NCBI RefSeq assembly: GCF_014656415.1
Contig: NZ_BNCJ01000003.1
Span: forward strand, 107,098 to 171,097
From: Seohaeicola zhoushanensis
GTDB taxonomy: Bacteria; Pseudomonadota; Alphaproteobacteria; Rhodobacterales; Rhodobacteraceae
Length of the DNA stretch: 64,000 bases
Reading direction: 5' to 3'
Both the position numbers and the translations under genes were made by a program. Below, piece by piece: positions 45,395 through 52,292 of this stretch (position 1 is the stretch's first letter; each line of letters begins with the position of its first letter). The notes under the pieces are model-generated. The model worked only from the letters and a program-made list of their open reading frames with translations. It had not been told where the DNA came from and did not search any database.

Positions 45395-46240
45395 TCAGTT
45401 CCCGTAGAGCGCCGCGCTCAGCTCGCCCACTGCATCGCCCGTGCGCGGGCCGAAGCCGAGAAGATACAGCCCCTCCATCCGCACCACCGCGCGGGCCTGA
45501 CCGGCGGGGGTGGCGGCAATGGCCGGCAGGGCAACAAGCTCGTCGACCGGGCTGTCATGCTCGCCGCCGCGCTCCATCATCAGGATCGCGTCCGGCGCGG
45601 CGGCCAGGATCGCCTCGTCGGTCAGGGGCTTGTAGCCCTCGAACCCGCTCACCGCGTTCTCGGCCCCCGCCAGCGCGATCATCGCATCGGCAGCGGTGCC
45701 GCTGCCCGAGGCCATGATGCGCCCGCCCGCCGCGCTCAGGATGAAGAGCACGCGCTTGGGAGTATCGCCCGCCCGCGCCTTCGCCTGCGCAGTGGCTTCC
45801 GTAATCCTGCCCGTCACCTCGGCCGCCAGCGCCGCCGCCTTCTCCGCCTCGCCAATGGCCGCGCCCACGGCGGTGACCTTCGCGGCGACGCCCTCGGCCG
45901 AATAGACGTCCGGGATCAGGACCAGCGGGATCGAGGCCGCCTTGAGCACCTCCATCGTCTCGGGCGGCCCCGCCCCCTGGTCGGCCAGGATCAGCGAAGG
46001 CCCGACCGAGAGCACCCCCTCGGGTGAGAGCGCGCGCAGATAGCCGACATCGGGCAGCGCCTGCGCCGCCTCGGGGTAAAGCGAGGTGGCATCGCGTGCC
46101 GCCAGCCGGTCGCCCGCGCCAAGCGCGAAGACGATCTCGGTGATCGCTCCGCCAACCGAGACGATACCGCCCGCCTTGTCCGCCGCCTGCGCCGGCGCGG
46201 CCAGCGCCAGCGCCAGCAGCGCCGCCTTCAGCCCCCTCAT
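45395..46240 (-). CDS. hmuT: periplasmic haem-binding protein
   Basis: 281 aa with signal peptide MRGLKAALLALALAAPAQA. The mature start (GGIVSVGGAITEIVFALGAGDRLAARDATSLYPEAAQALPDVGYLRALSPEGVLSV region, residues about 24-80) is typical of HmuT/ShuT. A conserved Tyr at the SLYPEA position is the usual haem ligand in this family. It receives haem from the outer-membrane receptor and passes it to HmuUV. Overlaps hmuS by ATGA. Confidence 0.92.
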   Translation of the reverse strand: MRGLKAALLALALAAPAQAADKAGGIVSVGGAITEIVFALGAGDRLAARDATSLYPEAAQALPDVGYLRALSPEGVLSVGPSLILADQGAGPPETMEVLKAASIPLVLIPDVYSAEGVAAKVTAVGAAIGEAEKAAALAAEVTGRITEATAQAKARAGDTPKRVLFILSAAGGRIMASGSGTAADAMIALAGAENAVSGFEGYKPLTDEAILAAAPDAILMMERGGEHDSPVDELVALPAIAATPAGQARAVVRMEGLYLLGFGPRTGDAVGELSAALYGN

Positions 46241-47292
46241 GCCTCGACCTCGGCCGTCAGCCCTTCGAGGCCTGCCACCAGTTCGCCCCAGGCCGGGCGG
46301 CAGTCGCGGCCTTCCTTGCCGACGCCGAAGACCTGCAGGATCAGCCCGCCATCCTTGTTGAACGCCTCGACCGAGACCGCCGGACCCCGCTGGGTCGGCT
46401 TGTCGACCGCCCAGACCTCGGCAATCCGGTCCAGCCGCAGGTGCAGGTTGAACCCCGGGTCCAGCACGTTCTGCCAGGGCCCCATCGGCTTCAGCGTGTG
46501 GATCGGCCCCGAGTGGATCTCGATACAGCCGCGGTTGCCGACAAAGACCATGATCTCCAGCCCCTGCGCCTGCACCTTCTCCAGCATGTCATTGAAGGCG
46601 CTCACCGCCAGCGGCCGCACGAAGGGCGCACCGGCGATGCGATAGGCGCCAAGGCGGTTCATCTTGAGCTTGGCCGTCAGCCGCAGGAACTGGTGGGTAT
46701 CCGTCATCCGCGCCCATTCCTTGCGCAGGATATCCAGCTTGTCGGGCGCCGAGCGCGGCGGCTCGTCAGGCTGGCGCGCCTCGACGGTCAGCGTCTGCGC
46801 CTGTTCCGCCAGCCGCAGATCGGCCTTGGCCTTGTCCCAGGCCGCCAGGTCGGCCCCGTCGCGCAGAAAGATCTTGTGCACCGCATCGCCCGCCTCGTCG
46901 AAGGCCTGCAGGCTGCGCCGGATTCCGATCTCGGTTTCCTTCTCGACCATATAGGCATACCGCCAATGCGCCGGGAACATCCGCAGGTCGATGTCGTCGT
47001 TCAGCACCATCGAGGCATGAGGGCCGTAGCGGTAGTTGGCATAGGCCCCCACCTTCTCGATCACGCAGTCCTCGTTGCGGGTCAGCGCCATGACCTCGCC
47101 AAAGGAGGCGGCCGCGCCCATGAAGCCATCCATATGCGGGTCGATCGCGGTGACACCGTGACCGCAATGCGCGGCGACAAGCTGCGCCTCGCTGATGCCG
47201 AGCTTGTCGGCCAGGTCGCGGTCGCGCATTTTCGGGTTTTCGACGCGCGCGGCGCGGATCGCCTCGGCGGTAAGCGGGTTGGGTTGGGTCAC
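46237..47292 (-). CDS. hmuS: haem-degrading/haem-trafficking factor HmuS
   Basis: 351 aa with two tandem structural repeats of the HemS/HmuS family: N-terminal AHCGHGVTAIDPHMDGFMGAAASFGEVMALTRNEDCVIEKVG region and C-terminal VFVGNRGCIEIHSGPIHTLKPMGPWQNVLDPGFNLHLRLD region; the latter carries the haem-contacting residues. It acts in the cytoplasm on imported haem. A GTG start at 47292 is chosen (AAGG 8 nt upstream); further 5' the frame has no similarity. First gene of hmuSTUV. Confidence 0.9.
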   Translation of the reverse strand: MTQPNPLTAEAIRAARVENPKMRDRDLADKLGISEAQLVAAHCGHGVTAIDPHMDGFMGAAASFGEVMALTRNEDCVIEKVGAYANYRYGPHASMVLNDDIDLRMFPAHWRYAYMVEKETEIGIRRSLQAFDEAGDAVHKIFLRDGADLAAWDKAKADLRLAEQAQTLTVEARQPDEPPRSAPDKLDILRKEWARMTDTHQFLRLTAKLKMNRLGAYRIAGAPFVRPLAVSAFNDMLEKVQAQGLEIMVFVGNRGCIEIHSGPIHTLKPMGPWQNVLDPGFNLHLRLDRIAEVWAVDKPTQRGPAVSVEAFNKDGGLILQVFGVGKEGRDCRPAWGELVAGLEGLTAEVEA

Positions 47293-47363
47293 GGGACACC
47301 TTTGCCTTGCAGTTTTCGGGGAGAGGGCTGGCGGGCACGCTTCCGGCACCGGCTGGCAAAAGC

Positions 47364-47514: not shown

Positions 47515-49539
47515 ATGAAAGCAATTCCTGACATACGTGCATTCCTGCTCGGCACCACCGCGATGCTCGCGGCGGCGGGCAGCGCAACCGCCCAGGAGGC
47601 CGGCGACGGCTTCCTCGGCACCCTGGTCCTCGGCCTGAGCAAGCGCGAGGTGCAGACCGGCACCGCAACGCCCGTCACCTCGGTCAACCAGGAAGAGATG
47701 GACGACCGCCAGGCCGGCACGATTGCCGAACTCGTCGATTCCGTGCCCGGCGTCACCCTGGTGAACGGGTCGACCCCCGGCGGCTCCGGCATCAACATCC
47801 GCGGCTTCGGGGCCAACGGCACCTTCGGCACCGACCAGAAGGTCGCCGTGCAGGTCGACGGCGCCAGCGTCGGCGCGGAAGAACTCTACCGCATCGGCAC
47901 CCAGCTCTACACCGACCCGTTCCTCTACCGGCAGGTCAGCGTGATCCGCGGCACGGTCGGCAGCTTCGAGTTCGGCTCGGGCATCGTCGGCGGCGTGGTC
48001 AAGCTCGAGACCAAGGACGCCTCCGACTTCACCGGCGGCGAAATCGGCGTGGTCTTCGGCCAGACCGTCGAGTTCACCAGCAACGGCAACGGCATCACCA
48101 GCTCGTCTATCCTGGCCTGGCAGCCGACCGAGAATTTCGAGATGCTGCTGAACTACACCTGGCGCGACCAGGACATCCAGAAGGACGGCAAGGGCGCGGC
48201 CATCGGCAACAGCGCCTTCACCCTGCCCTCGGGCCTCGTCAAGGCGCGCTATACCTTCGGCCAGAACCGCGAGCATTCGCTGACCCTGGCGCTCAGCCAG
48301 ACGCAAACGAGCGACCGCGACGTGCCCTATGACAGCTTCGTCATGGTCGCCGACGTCTTCGGCAACGTCGACCGCGACACGCTCTCGCGCACCGCGGTGC
48401 TGACCTACAACTTCAACCCCGCCGGCAACGACCTCGTCGACCTCGACGTAATCCTGTCGCGGGCCGACCAGCAGATCGACCAGACCTACGTCCCCGGCTC
48501 CTCGCCGCTCGACGGCACGCCGGACTTCGCCCAGATCTCGCCCCTGGTGAACGCCGACCACCGCTACCAGACCACCAAGCTGACGGTGAAGAACACCGCC
48601 CATGCAGTGACCGGCGCCATCCGGCACGACCTGCGAACCGGGGTCGAACTGGTCCACAAAAAGCGCCGCGACGCCGATTCCGCGCCCGGCGGCACCGACC
48701 GCCGGCTGGCGTTCTTCGTGGTGGACGACATGCAGATCGGCGACGGCTGGACCATCAGCCCGGCGCTGCGCTACGAGCGCTCCAGGATCGAGGGCGTCAC
48801 CGCTGCCACCGCCGGCCCCTACGAGAGCGACGCGCTTATGGGCGGCCTCTCGATCCGCCGCGCCTTCGCCAATGGTTTCGCGGTCTTCGGCAGCGCCGCC
48901 TATACCGAATCCCTGCCGATCATCGACGACCTCGGCAATGCCGCCCTCATCGCCATGTCCGAGAAGTCGCGTACCTTCGAGATTGGCGCCTCCTTCGACC
49001 GCGCCGACCTGTTCCGCCCCGGCGACCGACTGGCGGTCAAGGCCAACCTCTACAGCACCGACCTCTACGACGTGACCTCCTACACCGCCTCGGTCAGCGG
49101 CCCGAGCGTGCCGCTCGCCCGCGTCGAGACCAGGGGGCTGGAACTGGAGGCCTCCTATTCCACCGAGAGCGGCCACTACCTCGACTTCAACGCCAATATC
49201 GTCGAGGGCGAGGAGTTCAACGCCGCCGGCACCGCCGCGCGCTGGCGCAATTCGCCGGCCGACTCCGGGCGTCTGACGCTGGGCCGCCGGTTCGGCGAGG
49301 CGCTGGATCTCAGCTGGGAGGTCGCCGCCGCCCGCCCCGTCACCACCGCCACGACCCGCGTGCCGGGCTTCGGCGTGCACAACCTGCGCCTGACCTGGAA
49401 CCCGCAATCCGGGCCACTTGAAGGCACCATCATCCGCGCCGGTATCGAGAACCTCTTCGACCGCGCCTATACCCCGCACCTTTCCACGCGTCCCGCACCG
49501 GGGCGCAATTTCAAGGTGACCCTGTCACGACTGTTCTGA
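47515..49539 (+). CDS. TonB-dependent outer-membrane receptor, probable haem receptor
   Basis: 674 aa. Signal peptide residues 1-27. A TonB-box-like stretch (FLGTLVLG) is at about 33-40. Plug domain at about 50-165 (IAELVDSVPGVTLVNG, INIRGFG), then a beta-barrel ending in the canonical aromatic NFKVTLSRLF. Its place between hmuSTUV and exbBD-tonB indicates haem or haem-protein uptake. It is much shorter than HasR (about 865 aa), so it resembles HmuR-type receptors. I could not identify the FRAP/NPNL motifs of other haem receptors. ATG at 47515 has GAGGGGG upstream. Confidence 0.88.
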   Translation: MKAIPDIRAFLLGTTAMLAAAGSATAQEAGDGFLGTLVLGLSKREVQTGTATPVTSVNQEEMDDRQAGTIAELVDSVPGVTLVNGSTPGGSGINIRGFGANGTFGTDQKVAVQVDGASVGAEELYRIGTQLYTDPFLYRQVSVIRGTVGSFEFGSGIVGGVVKLETKDASDFTGGEIGVVFGQTVEFTSNGNGITSSSILAWQPTENFEMLLNYTWRDQDIQKDGKGAAIGNSAFTLPSGLVKARYTFGQNREHSLTLALSQTQTSDRDVPYDSFVMVADVFGNVDRDTLSRTAVLTYNFNPAGNDLVDLDVILSRADQQIDQTYVPGSSPLDGTPDFAQISPLVNADHRYQTTKLTVKNTAHAVTGAIRHDLRTGVELVHKKRRDADSAPGGTDRRLAFFVVDDMQIGDGWTISPALRYERSRIEGVTAATAGPYESDALMGGLSIRRAFANGFAVFGSAAYTESLPIIDDLGNAALIAMSEKSRTFEIGASFDRADLFRPGDRLAVKANLYSTDLYDVTSYTASVSGPSVPLARVETRGLELEASYSTESGHYLDFNANIVEGEEFNAAGTAARWRNSPADSGRLTLGRRFGEALDLSWEVAAARPVTTATTRVPGFGVHNLRLTWNPQSGPLEGTIIRAGIENLFDRAYTPHLSTRPAPGRNFKVTLSRLF

Positions 49540-49549
49540 GGACCAAGAC

Positions 49550-49966
49550 ATGCGATTTACGCTCACCCTGCTTGCCAGCATCGCGCTCGCCAGCCCGGCG
49601 GCGCGGGCGGAGGAGACCGGCGGCCTGACCATCGAGCTGAACCGGCAGGAGCCCGCCGACGCCGACTGCCGACTGACCTTCGTGGTAACCAACCGCCACG
49701 CCACGGCCATCGACGGCGCGGTCTTCGAGACCGTGCTCTTCGATGCCCAGGGCAGCGTCGACCGCCTGACCCTGTTCGATTTCGGCGCCCTGCCGCAGGG
49801 CCGCGAAAGGGTGCGCCAGTTCCAGGTCGACGGCCTGGCCTGCGACAATCTCGGCCGCGTGCTGTTCAACGGCGCCAGCAGCTGCACCGCCGGCGGCCAG
49901 CCGAGCGACCTCTGCGCCAGCACGCTCGAGGTATCGAGCCGCACCGCGACGGAGCTGCTGCGATGA
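49550..49966 (+). CDS. small periplasmic protein of the haem/TonB operon
   Basis: 138 aa. Signal peptide at about residues 1-20 (cleavage ARA-E). The mature part has four cysteines (DCRL, LACDN, SSCTA, LCAST), enough for two disulfides, and a beta-rich domain. It overlaps exbB by ATGA and so is expressed with the energy-transducing genes. I do not recognise a characterised family; a haem-relay or receptor-accessory role is a guess from context. Confidence 0.75.
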   Translation: MRFTLTLLASIALASPAARAEETGGLTIELNRQEPADADCRLTFVVTNRHATAIDGAVFETVLFDAQGSVDRLTLFDFGALPQGRERVRQFQVDGLACDNLGRVLFNGASSCTAGGQPSDLCASTLEVSSRTATELLR

Positions 49967-50616
49967 CCGGCCTTGTCGACGCGGTGAAGGGCGCCGTCGC
50001 ACTTGGCGGGCCGGTGGTGGCCGTTCTGGCGCTGGTCTCGGTGCTGACGGTGGCGGTGATCCTCTACAAGCTCTGGCAGTTCCGCGCAGCCGGCGTCGGC
50101 CGGCACCGCGCCCTGCGCCGCGCCGTGGCCCATTGGGATGCCGGCGCCCGCGCCGAGGCCCGCCGCGATGTGGCCGAGGGCCGCAGCTACCTGCAGCCGC
50201 TGTTCGACATGGCGATGTCGCACCACGGCGCCGAGGGCATCCGCGCCCGGCTCGAAGCCGAGGCCGAGACCCGTTTCGCCCGGCTCGAACGCGGTTTCCG
50301 CTATCTTGACTCGGTGGCCCAGCTGGCCCCGCTCATGGGGCTCTTCGGCACCGTGCTCGGCATGATCGAGGCCTTCCAGTCGCTGCAGGCGGCGGGCGCG
50401 CAGGTCGACCCCTCGCTGCTGGCCGGCGGCATCTGGGTCGCGCTGCTGACCACGGCCGTGGGCCTTGGCGTGGCAATGCCGACCTCGGTAGTGCTGTCCT
50501 GGCTCGAAAGCCGCATGGCCGCCGAACGCGTGATCGCCGAACAGGGCTTTTCCGCCATCCTGACCCCGGCCGGGGAACGGACGCGCGCAGCTGGGCCGGC
50601 GGCCCATGTCGCTTAG
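49963..50616 (+). CDS. exbB: ExbB/TolQ/MotA family proton channel subunit
   Basis: 217 aa with three membrane helices. The conserved MGLFGTVLGMIEAFQSL and GIWVALLTTAVGLGVAMPTSVVLSWLESR segments form the proton-channel helices. With ExbD and TonB it energises the outer-membrane receptor. Overlaps the preceding gene (ATGA) and the first exbD. Confidence 0.92.
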   Translation: MTGLVDAVKGAVALGGPVVAVLALVSVLTVAVILYKLWQFRAAGVGRHRALRRAVAHWDAGARAEARRDVAEGRSYLQPLFDMAMSHHGAEGIRARLEAEAETRFARLERGFRYLDSVAQLAPLMGLFGTVLGMIEAFQSLQAAGAQVDPSLLAGGIWVALLTTAVGLGVAMPTSVVLSWLESRMAAERVIAEQGFSAILTPAGERTRAAGPAAHVA

Positions 50617-50980
50617 GGCCCGCTACCGGCGCCGCGCCCTGTCGATGACCTCGCTGATCGACGTGATCTTCCTGCTGCTGCTGTTCTTCATGCTCTCCTC
50701 GACCTTCTCGAAGTTCTCCGAAGTGGACCTGGTCGCCTCCAGCGCGCCCGGCTCCGCAGCCGAAGGCAAGGTGCTCTTCCTTCAGGTCGCCGAAGAGGGG
50801 CTGCGCCTGAACGCGCAGCCGCTAACGCTCGAAGACCTGCCCGCACGACTGGAGCCCGAGACCCAGGCGCAGCTGGTTCTCAGCCTCGCACCCGAAGTGA
50901 CGTCGCAGCGCCTGGCCGACGTGCTGGTGATCTTGCGCGCCCGTCCCGGCCTGCGCTTCAGCATCCTGGCCCCGTCATGA
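50606..50980 (+). CDS. exbD: ExbD-family protein 1
   Basis: 124 aa. One N-terminal membrane helix (TSLIDVIFLLLLFFMLSS) containing Asp19, the residue equivalent to the proton-carrying Asp25 of E. coli ExbD, then a periplasmic domain. Overlaps exbB by 11 nt and the second exbD by ATGA. Confidence 0.9.
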   Translation: MSLRARYRRRALSMTSLIDVIFLLLLFFMLSSTFSKFSEVDLVASSAPGSAAEGKVLFLQVAEEGLRLNAQPLTLEDLPARLEPETQAQLVLSLAPEVTSQRLADVLVILRARPGLRFSILAPS

Positions 50981-51363
50981 AGCGCCCCGCCCCCCGCCGC
51001 CCGCGCGAGCCGACGATCGCGCTCATCAATGTCGTCTTCCTGATGCTGGTCTTCTTCATGGTCGCAGGCACCCTCGCCCCCTCACAGGAACGCGGAATCG
51101 ACCTGGTCGAGACCGCCGACCTCGAAGGCCGCGCCCCGCCCGATGCGCTGGTCATCATGGCCGACGGCGAGTTGCGTTATCGCGGCAGCGTGCTGACCTC
51201 GGCCAGTGCCTATCTCGACCGCCCCGATAGCCGGCCGCGCGACGTGGTGCGGCTGATGCCCGACCGCGCCCTGCCCGCCGCCGACCTGCTGCGGATCGGC
51301 GCGGAACTGCGCGCTGCCGGGGTCGAGCGCGTCGTGATCTCAACCATGCGGGGGCAGGAATGA
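50977..51363 (+). CDS. ExbD-family protein 2 with Asn in place of the membrane Asp
   Basis: 128 aa. Same topology as ExbD 1, but the membrane helix reads TIALINVVFLMLVFFMVAG, so Asn18 (codon AAT) takes the position of the essential proton-carrying Asp. The periplasmic domain is intact. It may form a heterodimer with ExbD 1 in the ExbB pentamer. Overlaps both neighbours by ATGA. Confidence 0.88.
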   Translation: MKRPAPRRPREPTIALINVVFLMLVFFMVAGTLAPSQERGIDLVETADLEGRAPPDALVIMADGELRYRGSVLTSASAYLDRPDSRPRDVVRLMPDRALPAADLLRIGAELRAAGVERVVISTMRGQE

Positions 51364-52292
51364 TCCCGAGTTCCCGCAAGCTGGCGCTGCTGGTGCTGAC
51401 GGTCTCGGCCGGCGGCCACCTCGCCGCGATGGGGCTGACGCTGCGCCCCGCCGATGTTGCCATGCAGGGCGGCGCCGAAGTGGCCGCCTCGGCCATCGGG
51501 TCGAGCTTTGCCGACCTCAGCGCCGGGGTGCAGACCCCGCAGCCAGTCGCGCTCAGCGAGACGGTGCAGCCGGTGGAACCGGTCACCGCCCGCACCCCGC
51601 CGCCCGCCGTGACACCGACGGTGACGGCCCAGGCGACGCCCAGCGCGGCGCCGCAACCGCTGACCGCGACACCGGCCCAGGCCGCCACGCCGCCGGTCCC
51701 GACGCTGGCCCCGACGGTGCCGGCCCCGACCGAGACCGCGAAGGTCGAGCCGCAACAGACCGAGGCACTTCCGCCACCCGAGACGGTGCGACCCGAACCC
51801 GAGCGGACCGCCGAGGTGCCGCCCGAGGAGACGGTGACGCCCGAACCCGAACCGACGCAGGTGGTCGAGAATTCGCCCCGGCCCAAGGCCCGGCCGAAAC
51901 CACCCGCCCCGGCCCCCGCCCCCGGCAATGCCGACCGCAATGCACGCTCAGGCAGCGAGACCGGCGCCGAGACCGTGAAGACCAGGGCCGCGCAATCGCA
52001 GAAGGCTGCCGCCGGAAACGCCGCGGGCAATGCGGCAGCCGACAACTACCCGGGCCAGGTCATGCGGCGCATCAGCCGGGTGCCGCGCCCACGGGTTCAG
52101 GTGCGCGGCGAGGCGGTGATCCGCTTCTCGATCGCCGCCAACGGTGCATTGGCCGCGGCCAGCGTGGCGCGCTCCTCGGGCTCTGCGGCGCTGGACAGCG
52201 CGGCGCTGGCGGTGCTGCAGAAGGCCGCCCCCTTCCCCGCCCCGCCAGCCGGGGCGCGGCGCGATTACTCGATCCGGATCGAGGGCCGGTAA
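51360..52292 (+). CDS. tonB: TonB energy transducer
   Basis: 310 aa. An N-terminal membrane helix includes the conserved His (SAGGHLAAMGL). A long Pro/Glu/Thr-rich periplasmic spacer spans about residues 55-200, and the C-terminal TonB domain (about 225-310) has NYPGQVMRRISRVPRPR, GEAVIRFSIAANG and the SSGSAALDSAALAVLQKAAPFP helix. It links ExbBD to the receptor. Last gene of the operon. Confidence 0.9.
   Translation: MIPSSRKLALLVLTVSAGGHLAAMGLTLRPADVAMQGGAEVAASAIGSSFADLSAGVQTPQPVALSETVQPVEPVTARTPPPAVTPTVTAQATPSAAPQPLTATPAQAATPPVPTLAPTVPAPTETAKVEPQQTEALPPPETVRPEPERTAEVPPEETVTPEPEPTQVVENSPRPKARPKPPAPAPAPGNADRNARSGSETGAETVKTRAAQSQKAAAGNAAGNAAADNYPGQVMRRISRVPRPRVQVRGEAVIRFSIAANGALAAASVARSSGSAALDSAALAVLQKAAPFPAPPAGARRDYSIRIEGR

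Follow-up and report, generated by a model that had tools for sequence, protein, structure and literature searches.

Tandem ExbD proteins with aspartate and asparagine at the acid site: a conserved variant of the Ton motor found by sequence analysis in Seohaeicola zhoushanensis and its relatives

In the proton-driven Ton motor, which draws haem and other nutrients across the outer membrane, the aspartate of ExbD is the essential proton-binding acid. The D25N form of E. coli ExbD is called inactive in a review of the field (PMC11658791), and MotB D22N is described as a mimic of the protonated state (PMC9389320). As described for the solved motors, the two acids of the dimer differ in their surroundings, one being located at a threonine of ExbB/TolQ and the other toward the cytoplasmic cavity (PMC12905483, PMC12215075, PMC12965293). 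Published rotary models are said to assume two acids acting in alternation (PMC12215075).

Operons with more than one ExbD gene have been described in several bacteria. The haem cluster of Ruegeria sp. TM1040 is of the same operon type as the one analysed here, as it contains hmuTUV, hmuS, hmuR, exbB, exbD1, a duplicate exbD1a, tonB and a hypothetical protein; its hmuR was shown to be necessary for haem uptake (PMC5225302). In the account of that cluster exbD1a is described as a duplicate only and the absence of an Asp is not mentioned, the likeness being one of gene content (PMC5225302). Tandem exbD1-exbD2 genes accompanied by TonB and ExbB have also been reported from Xanthomonas campestris (PMC3551730) and Sphingobium SYK-6 (PMC8599685), in both of which the gene order is different (tonB-exbB-exbD1-exbD2). 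The comparison with Xanthomonas concerns genes and not residues, whereas both tandem ExbDs of SYK-6 are described as keeping Asp25, unlike the pair analysed here (PMC8599685). These two cases suggest that tandem ExbDs need not work as a one-acid pair. Both the operon type and the tandem ExbDs are therefore already known from these accounts. Besides, the AglRQS gliding motor of Myxococcus combines one pentamer-forming protein with two different axle-type proteins; according to the paper, it is not known whether the latter form homo- or heterodimers, but the conserved Asp is described in both of them (PMC9389320).

The operon analysed here lies in a stretch of 64,000 nucleotides of S. zhoushanensis (contig NZ_BNCJ01000003.1, positions 107,098 to 171,097), hereafter the window, and its features are collected in Table 1. 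The parts of a Ton motor are all present: an ExbB with both pore threonines, an acid-bearing ExbD and TonB. In common with the motor of E. coli and Serratia, it has the equivalents of ExbB Thr148 and Thr181, the ExbD fold, TonB, an outer-membrane receptor and, in ExbD 1, the acid; it differs in having two ExbD genes, the second one with Asn at the acid site and a non-polar residue four positions before it (position -4), and in the replacement of ExbB Glu176 by Val. In HMM alignments to solved chains, Asp19 of ExbD 1 and Asn18 of ExbD 2 both align to Asp25 of E. coli ExbD. Judged by Asp at that position, ExbD 1 is a proton-carrying ExbD and ExbD 2 is not. The first-pass annotation, made from the letters of the window, had read Asp against Asn (codon AAT) at the same helix position and overlapping exbD genes in one operon; the first reading is exact, and the overlap is confirmed as 4 nt (ATGA) shared by the two frames. 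Both proteins are recognised by the Pfam ExbD family PF02472 (cut-off 25.4 bits), ExbD 1 with 51.6 bits and ExbD 2 with 40.6 bits over residues 11-123.

Table 1. Features of the operon and of its neighbourhood (positions are those of the window)
Feature	Position	Strand	Description
Periplasmic binding protein of an ABC importer	45395..46240	-	HmuT-like by position; divergent neighbour
HmuS/HemS-type haem-degrading protein	46237..47349	-	370 aa; divergent neighbour
TonB-dependent outer-membrane receptor	47515..49539	+	Top NCBIfam match is a haem/haemoglobin receptor model, below its cut-off
Putative secreted small protein	49550..49966	+	138 aa; without Pfam family; conserved beside these motors
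ExbB	49963..50616	+	217 aa; the only ExbB of the operon
ExbD 1 (D-type partner)	50606..50980	+	124 aa; ...SMTSLIDVIFLLLLFF...
ExbD 1 site residues	Asp19 (GAC) 50660-50662; Thr15 (-4) 50648-50650		
ExbD 2 (N-type)	50977..51363	+	Full-length ExbD, 128 aa; ...TIALINVVFLMLVFF...
ExbD 2 site residues	Asn18 (AAT) 51028-51030; Ile14 (-4) 51016-51018; Glu11 (-7) 51007-51009		
TonB	51360..52292	+	310 aa with a TonB C-terminal domain; gene start overlapping the stop of ExbD 2

The neighbourhood is compatible with the haem role that had been supposed for the operon: the haem-degrading protein scores 282 bits with the HemS family and the binding protein 112.6 bits, but the receptor, with 230.9 bits, falls short of the haem-subfamily cut-off (316.85). 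However, the haem genes searched for are absent from some of the operons with such an ExbD pair in other genomes, so the motor type as such is not haem-specific.

The pair with Asp in the first protein (D-type) and Asn in the second (N-type), hereafter the D/N pair, was followed in searches covering the phylum of the window, plus control genomes. Among 295 genomes of the family, 169 gave some ExbD match, and the best 80 places (E-value 7e-14 or better) come from 77 genomes. A second sample, taken from another collection, consists of the best 80 of 349 confirmed relatives. The tandem pair with Asp first and Asn second is found in 80 of 80 loci in each case, that is in 160 of the 160 best relatives, the two samples partly overlapping, and the conservation of Asn in tandem pairs, which the first-pass annotation had proposed as a check, is very strong. 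Twenty weaker tandem matches comprise 18 D/N pairs, mostly of a second subfamily (PMIDVVF/PMINVVF), and two pairs with Asp in both proteins (D/D pairs), one of them in the window's own genome. With a profile built from 28 N-types, the search was extended to 240 genomes from the class and 249 from the phylum, and the best matches correspond to 57 loci (L217-L273). Over all fetched loci, with each distinct second protein counted once, the totals are 234 for D/N and 25 for D/D pairs, besides one N-type that has lost its partner at a contig end; as the loci were found mostly with N-type queries, the share of D/N pairs is inflated and the ratio of the two kinds is not a population frequency.

Counted by locus and genome handle, the D/N pairs belong to at least 25 family groups, three of them outside the class (f181, f191, f199). 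Those within the class are f1, f2, f8, f10, f19 (counted from L316), f23, f28, f33, f75, f80, f82, f95, f96, f105, f107, f123, f124 (which rests on L232, a suspect assembly), f125, f126, f135, f146 and f160. Every N-type is second, behind a D-type, the sole exception being the one cut off from its partner by the contig end, and the single ExbDs among the fetched loci have Asp in all cases. A census of all PF02472 domains in six genomes, picked for holding D/N pairs, gave 27 domains: seven N-types, all second behind a D-type, and 20 D-types, of which seven are these partners, four form two D/D pairs (G000, G789) and nine stand alone. A plasmid search returned 27 records, all with Rhodobacterales-type genus names, and the 15 matches listed are annotated as 'biopolymer transporter ExbD' or similar.

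As regards gene order, ExbB lies directly upstream of the pair in 80/80 loci of both samples, and the complete run ExbB-D-N-TonB is found in 75/80 and 77/80. In 231 of 233 pairs the nearest possible start of ExbD 2 lies at most 8 nt away from the stop of ExbD 1, the 4-nt overlap being present in 95, and such near-contiguous genes suit a coupled 1:1 synthesis. In one draft genome (L232, 1012-1893) the D-type and the N-type are found in a single open frame of 294 aa, probably as a result of an assembly error. This case was set aside as a natural fusion proving the pairing, for the linker looks frame-shifted and the second helix would point the wrong way.

The protein encoded downstream differs between the two kinds of pair. 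TonB follows in 219 of the 234 D/N pairs; no match was found in five others with enough sequence nor in ten with less than 1.6 kb (219/224 assessable), and TonB is upstream of the operon in a few loci. The 25 D/D pairs are followed by a DUF4384 protein in 18 cases and by TonB in two (L253 and L320), five being not judgeable. Asn is therefore not strictly fixed in the second position, since 25 distinct D/D pairs exist, and the two cases with Asp before TonB show that it is not indispensable with TonB. In trees calculated without the D/N column, the second-position proteins, whichever residue they bear, group in a single clade (97/98) that excludes nearly all the first-position ones and contains both the DUF4384 group (100/100) and the two D/D cases linked to TonB. 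Two N-types (L241, L246) fall just outside, beside two single ExbDs at an unresolved fork, and L283 is a D/D pair of another kind, placed apart. The fewest changes between Asp and Asn are three in the first tree and five in the second, both trees having few columns for their rows, and a topology test that forced the N rows into a single clade gave p-AU 0.0565, which is no clear rejection. The trees do not show that Asn had one clean origin, considering that Asp-bearing second proteins nest in the second-position clade and that at least three or five changes are needed, together with this p-AU value. From these sequence data we take Asn to be ancient in the second protein, which would have gone back to Asp a few times, but several gains are possible. 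Most of the association between residue and output partner comes from a single clade and does not amount to many independent cases.

The existence of ExbD 2 homologues with Asp had been named beforehand as what would point to a random local mutation or a sequence error. Such homologues exist, in the 25 distinct D/D pairs, but they lie within the second-position clade, mostly in one tight group, and they read as a few evolutionary switches of the residue and not as sequencing errors.

The window genome itself holds both types of pair. Its operon without TonB (L211, G000:C1:339200-345500) consists of a small protein, ExbB, two ExbDs (D/D) and a DUF4384 protein of 515 aa, and it adjoins a convergent gene for a caspase-domain protein (Peptidase C14). 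The motor predicted from it shares with the D/N motor the clades and the order small protein-ExbB-ExbD-ExbD, and differs in that the second ExbD has Asp and the downstream protein has the DUF4384 domain and no TonB domain by Pfam. The small protein (L211:1548-1973), upstream of ExbB, is 31% identical over 118 aa to the small protein of the window operon. A protein of this kind was found upstream of 175 of 197 assessable D/N pairs (37 too short) and of 22 of 23 assessable D/D pairs (2 too short), and it is absent from most loci of the second D/N subfamily. This small secreted protein may be an accessory subunit of tandem-ExbD motors.

The N-type helix differs from that of its partner in more than the acid site. 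At position -4, one helix turn below the acid site and aligned to Thr21 of E. coli, 209 of 213 partners have Thr, as do 20 of 23 single ExbDs, whereas 216 of 219 N-types have I, V or L; at position -7, Glu or Asp is present in 210/219 N-types, 0/213 partners and 0/23 single ExbDs (sequences whose site could not be placed in frame are excluded from these counts). Two polar residues have thus disappeared from the N-type helix, while an acid has been added at its cytoplasmic cap, and Glu11 of ExbD 2 is perhaps a helix cap in the cytoplasmic cavity. In 60 diverse rows L16, N18, V20, F21, L22, L24 and F26 are invariant and the rest of the helix is nearly so. AlphaFold2 models, made from alignments of 60 N-types and 50 D-type partners, reached a mean pLDDT of 80 for ExbD 2 and 83 for ExbD 1. 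That of ExbD 2 has a single N-terminal helix (residues 13-33) followed by the periplasmic ExbD/TolR fold, and its Foldseek ranks 1-6 are all ExbD/TolR periplasmic domains (probabilities 0.98-1.00); their E-values go from 1e-3 to 4e-2, none being under 1e-3, and hence it is the consistency of the ranking that carries the assignment. For both ExbDs the best structural matches are solved periplasmic domains of ExbD, some of them in complex with the D-box of TonB, and of TolR, and along E. coli ExbD the profiles of both types reach from the helix almost to the C-terminal end.

In ExbB, Thr130 and Thr164 align with E. coli Thr148 and Thr181, and both equivalents are Thr in all 258 rows that could be aligned from D/N operons (of 263 including repeated loci, 5 have a gap), so that the proton path is kept for one acid. 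The position of E. coli Glu176 is occupied by Val159 in the window (50437-50439), and among the D/N operon rows Val occurs there 206 times, Glu 42 times, Gln 5 times and other residues 5 times (n=258). The loss of Glu176 was considered as a partner change of Asn and rejected, since operons that lack a D/N pair vary at this site too (E, K, Q, R, M, V). In the SYK-6 paper, the loss of this Glu in one ExbB, along with no phenotype, is taken as a sign of non-function (PMC8599685); the conserved D/N operons with Val there argue against such a general rule.

Several explanations of ExbD 2 have to be weighed. One base separates the Asp codon from that of Asn, and the protein could be seen as a decaying duplicate, or its Asn as a chance mutation or a sequence error. 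This is contradicted by the Asn of all 160 best relatives of the overlapping samples and by the spread of D/N pairs over at least 25 family groups. The 225 distinct N-type sequences use both Asn codons (AAC 153, AAT 72), which indicates that the residue is conserved although its codon changes. ExbD 2 is also under purifying selection, the dN/dS of close pairs having a median of 0.085 (range 0.02-0.32; 71 of 73 pairs usable). Decay or error was rejected on these grounds and hardly deserves any credence. Quite improbable, too, is that ExbD 2 carries protons by means of the Glu/Asp at -7, two helix turns below Asn, which would give two proton sites at different depths. The near-universal acid at -7 in N-types and its absence from partners and single ExbDs agree with this idea, but the model helix begins at residue 13, which places Glu11 at the cytoplasmic helix cap, and the acid is also carried by second-position Asp proteins (3/4 in the count, and most D/D sequences listed), so it did not arise as a replacement.

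It is somewhat less unlikely that ExbD 2 stays outside the working pore, ExbD 1 homodimers driving TonB with two acids, and that it acts in separate or transient complexes by docking TonB, peptidoglycan or a class of receptor, or by holding surplus ExbB inactive. Its conserved periplasmic fold would suit such a role, and exbD2 of Xanthomonas is reported to be needed for a signalling output and not for iron uptake (PMC3551730). Against it stand the tight coupling of the exbD1 and exbD2 genes and the transmembrane helix, which belongs to the best conserved stretches of ExbD 2 and would be needless in a mere periplasmic scaffold.

The reading preferred here, which we hold to be reasonably probable from the sequences, is that five ExbB subunits, ExbD 1 and ExbD 2 form one Ton motor with a single proton-binding acid and one helix of each ExbD in the pore. 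ExbB, both ExbDs and TonB would constitute this motor. Proton binding and release would be carried out by ExbD 1 only, through Asp19 and the conserved ExbB threonines, while the Asn of ExbD 2, which resembles a permanently protonated acid, would make it the proton-inert half of the axle; ExbD 2 would keep its periplasmic TonB-binding fold and fix the direction of the dimer. The asymmetric pair with one protonatable subunit suggested by the first-pass annotation is favoured by the gene pairing, by the dependence on a D-type partner and by the loss of the second polar residue; we infer from these a 1:1 heterodimer in one ExbB pentamer, with one proton site per motor and a fixed orientation of TonB. 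As E. coli D25N is described as inactive, an N/N homodimer is not expected to work, so the N-type would have to act with a D-type. ExbD 1 homodimers could also be formed. The asymmetry of the two acids in the solved motors would be made permanent by a D/N heterodimer. Under a rotary scheme, one turn would take the active acid past all five ExbB subunits, once each, which would give 5 protons per turn in steps of 72 degrees; for a gate or a piston, a single acid would be enough. The broader view, that true one-acid Ton motors are widespread, is put forward tentatively, as it is more doubtful than plausible. Each pentamer would hold a single copy of ExbD 1 and of ExbD 2, working with one proton per 72 degrees (5 per turn, not 10) or as a single-stroke device without alternation; the heterodimer would fix one docking direction for TonB, and evolution would set the second site by the load, as Asn with TonB and as Asp again in the lineage whose motor drives a DUF4384 protein.

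In a literature search of open-licence PMC papers no mention of a natural Asn at the acid site of ExbD was found, and among the alignments listed in PDB sequence searches there was no entry with one. On the evidence of its sequences, the D/N pair is a real and conserved variant of the Ton motor, for which no earlier description was found and for whose asymmetry a role is only proposed.

How proton flow moves ExbD, TolR or MotB within the pentamer is an unsettled question, and the pairing of an Asp-bearing with an Asp-less ExbD in many bacteria is a natural test of whether such a motor needs two acids. The sister clade of D/D pairs, with another output partner, provides a built-in comparison, and an active and an inert axle subunit constitute a ready tool, as each of them can be tagged, swapped or changed separately. 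If the heterodimer is real, a natural one-acid motor would bear directly on the two-acid rotary models, and alternation would not be needed.
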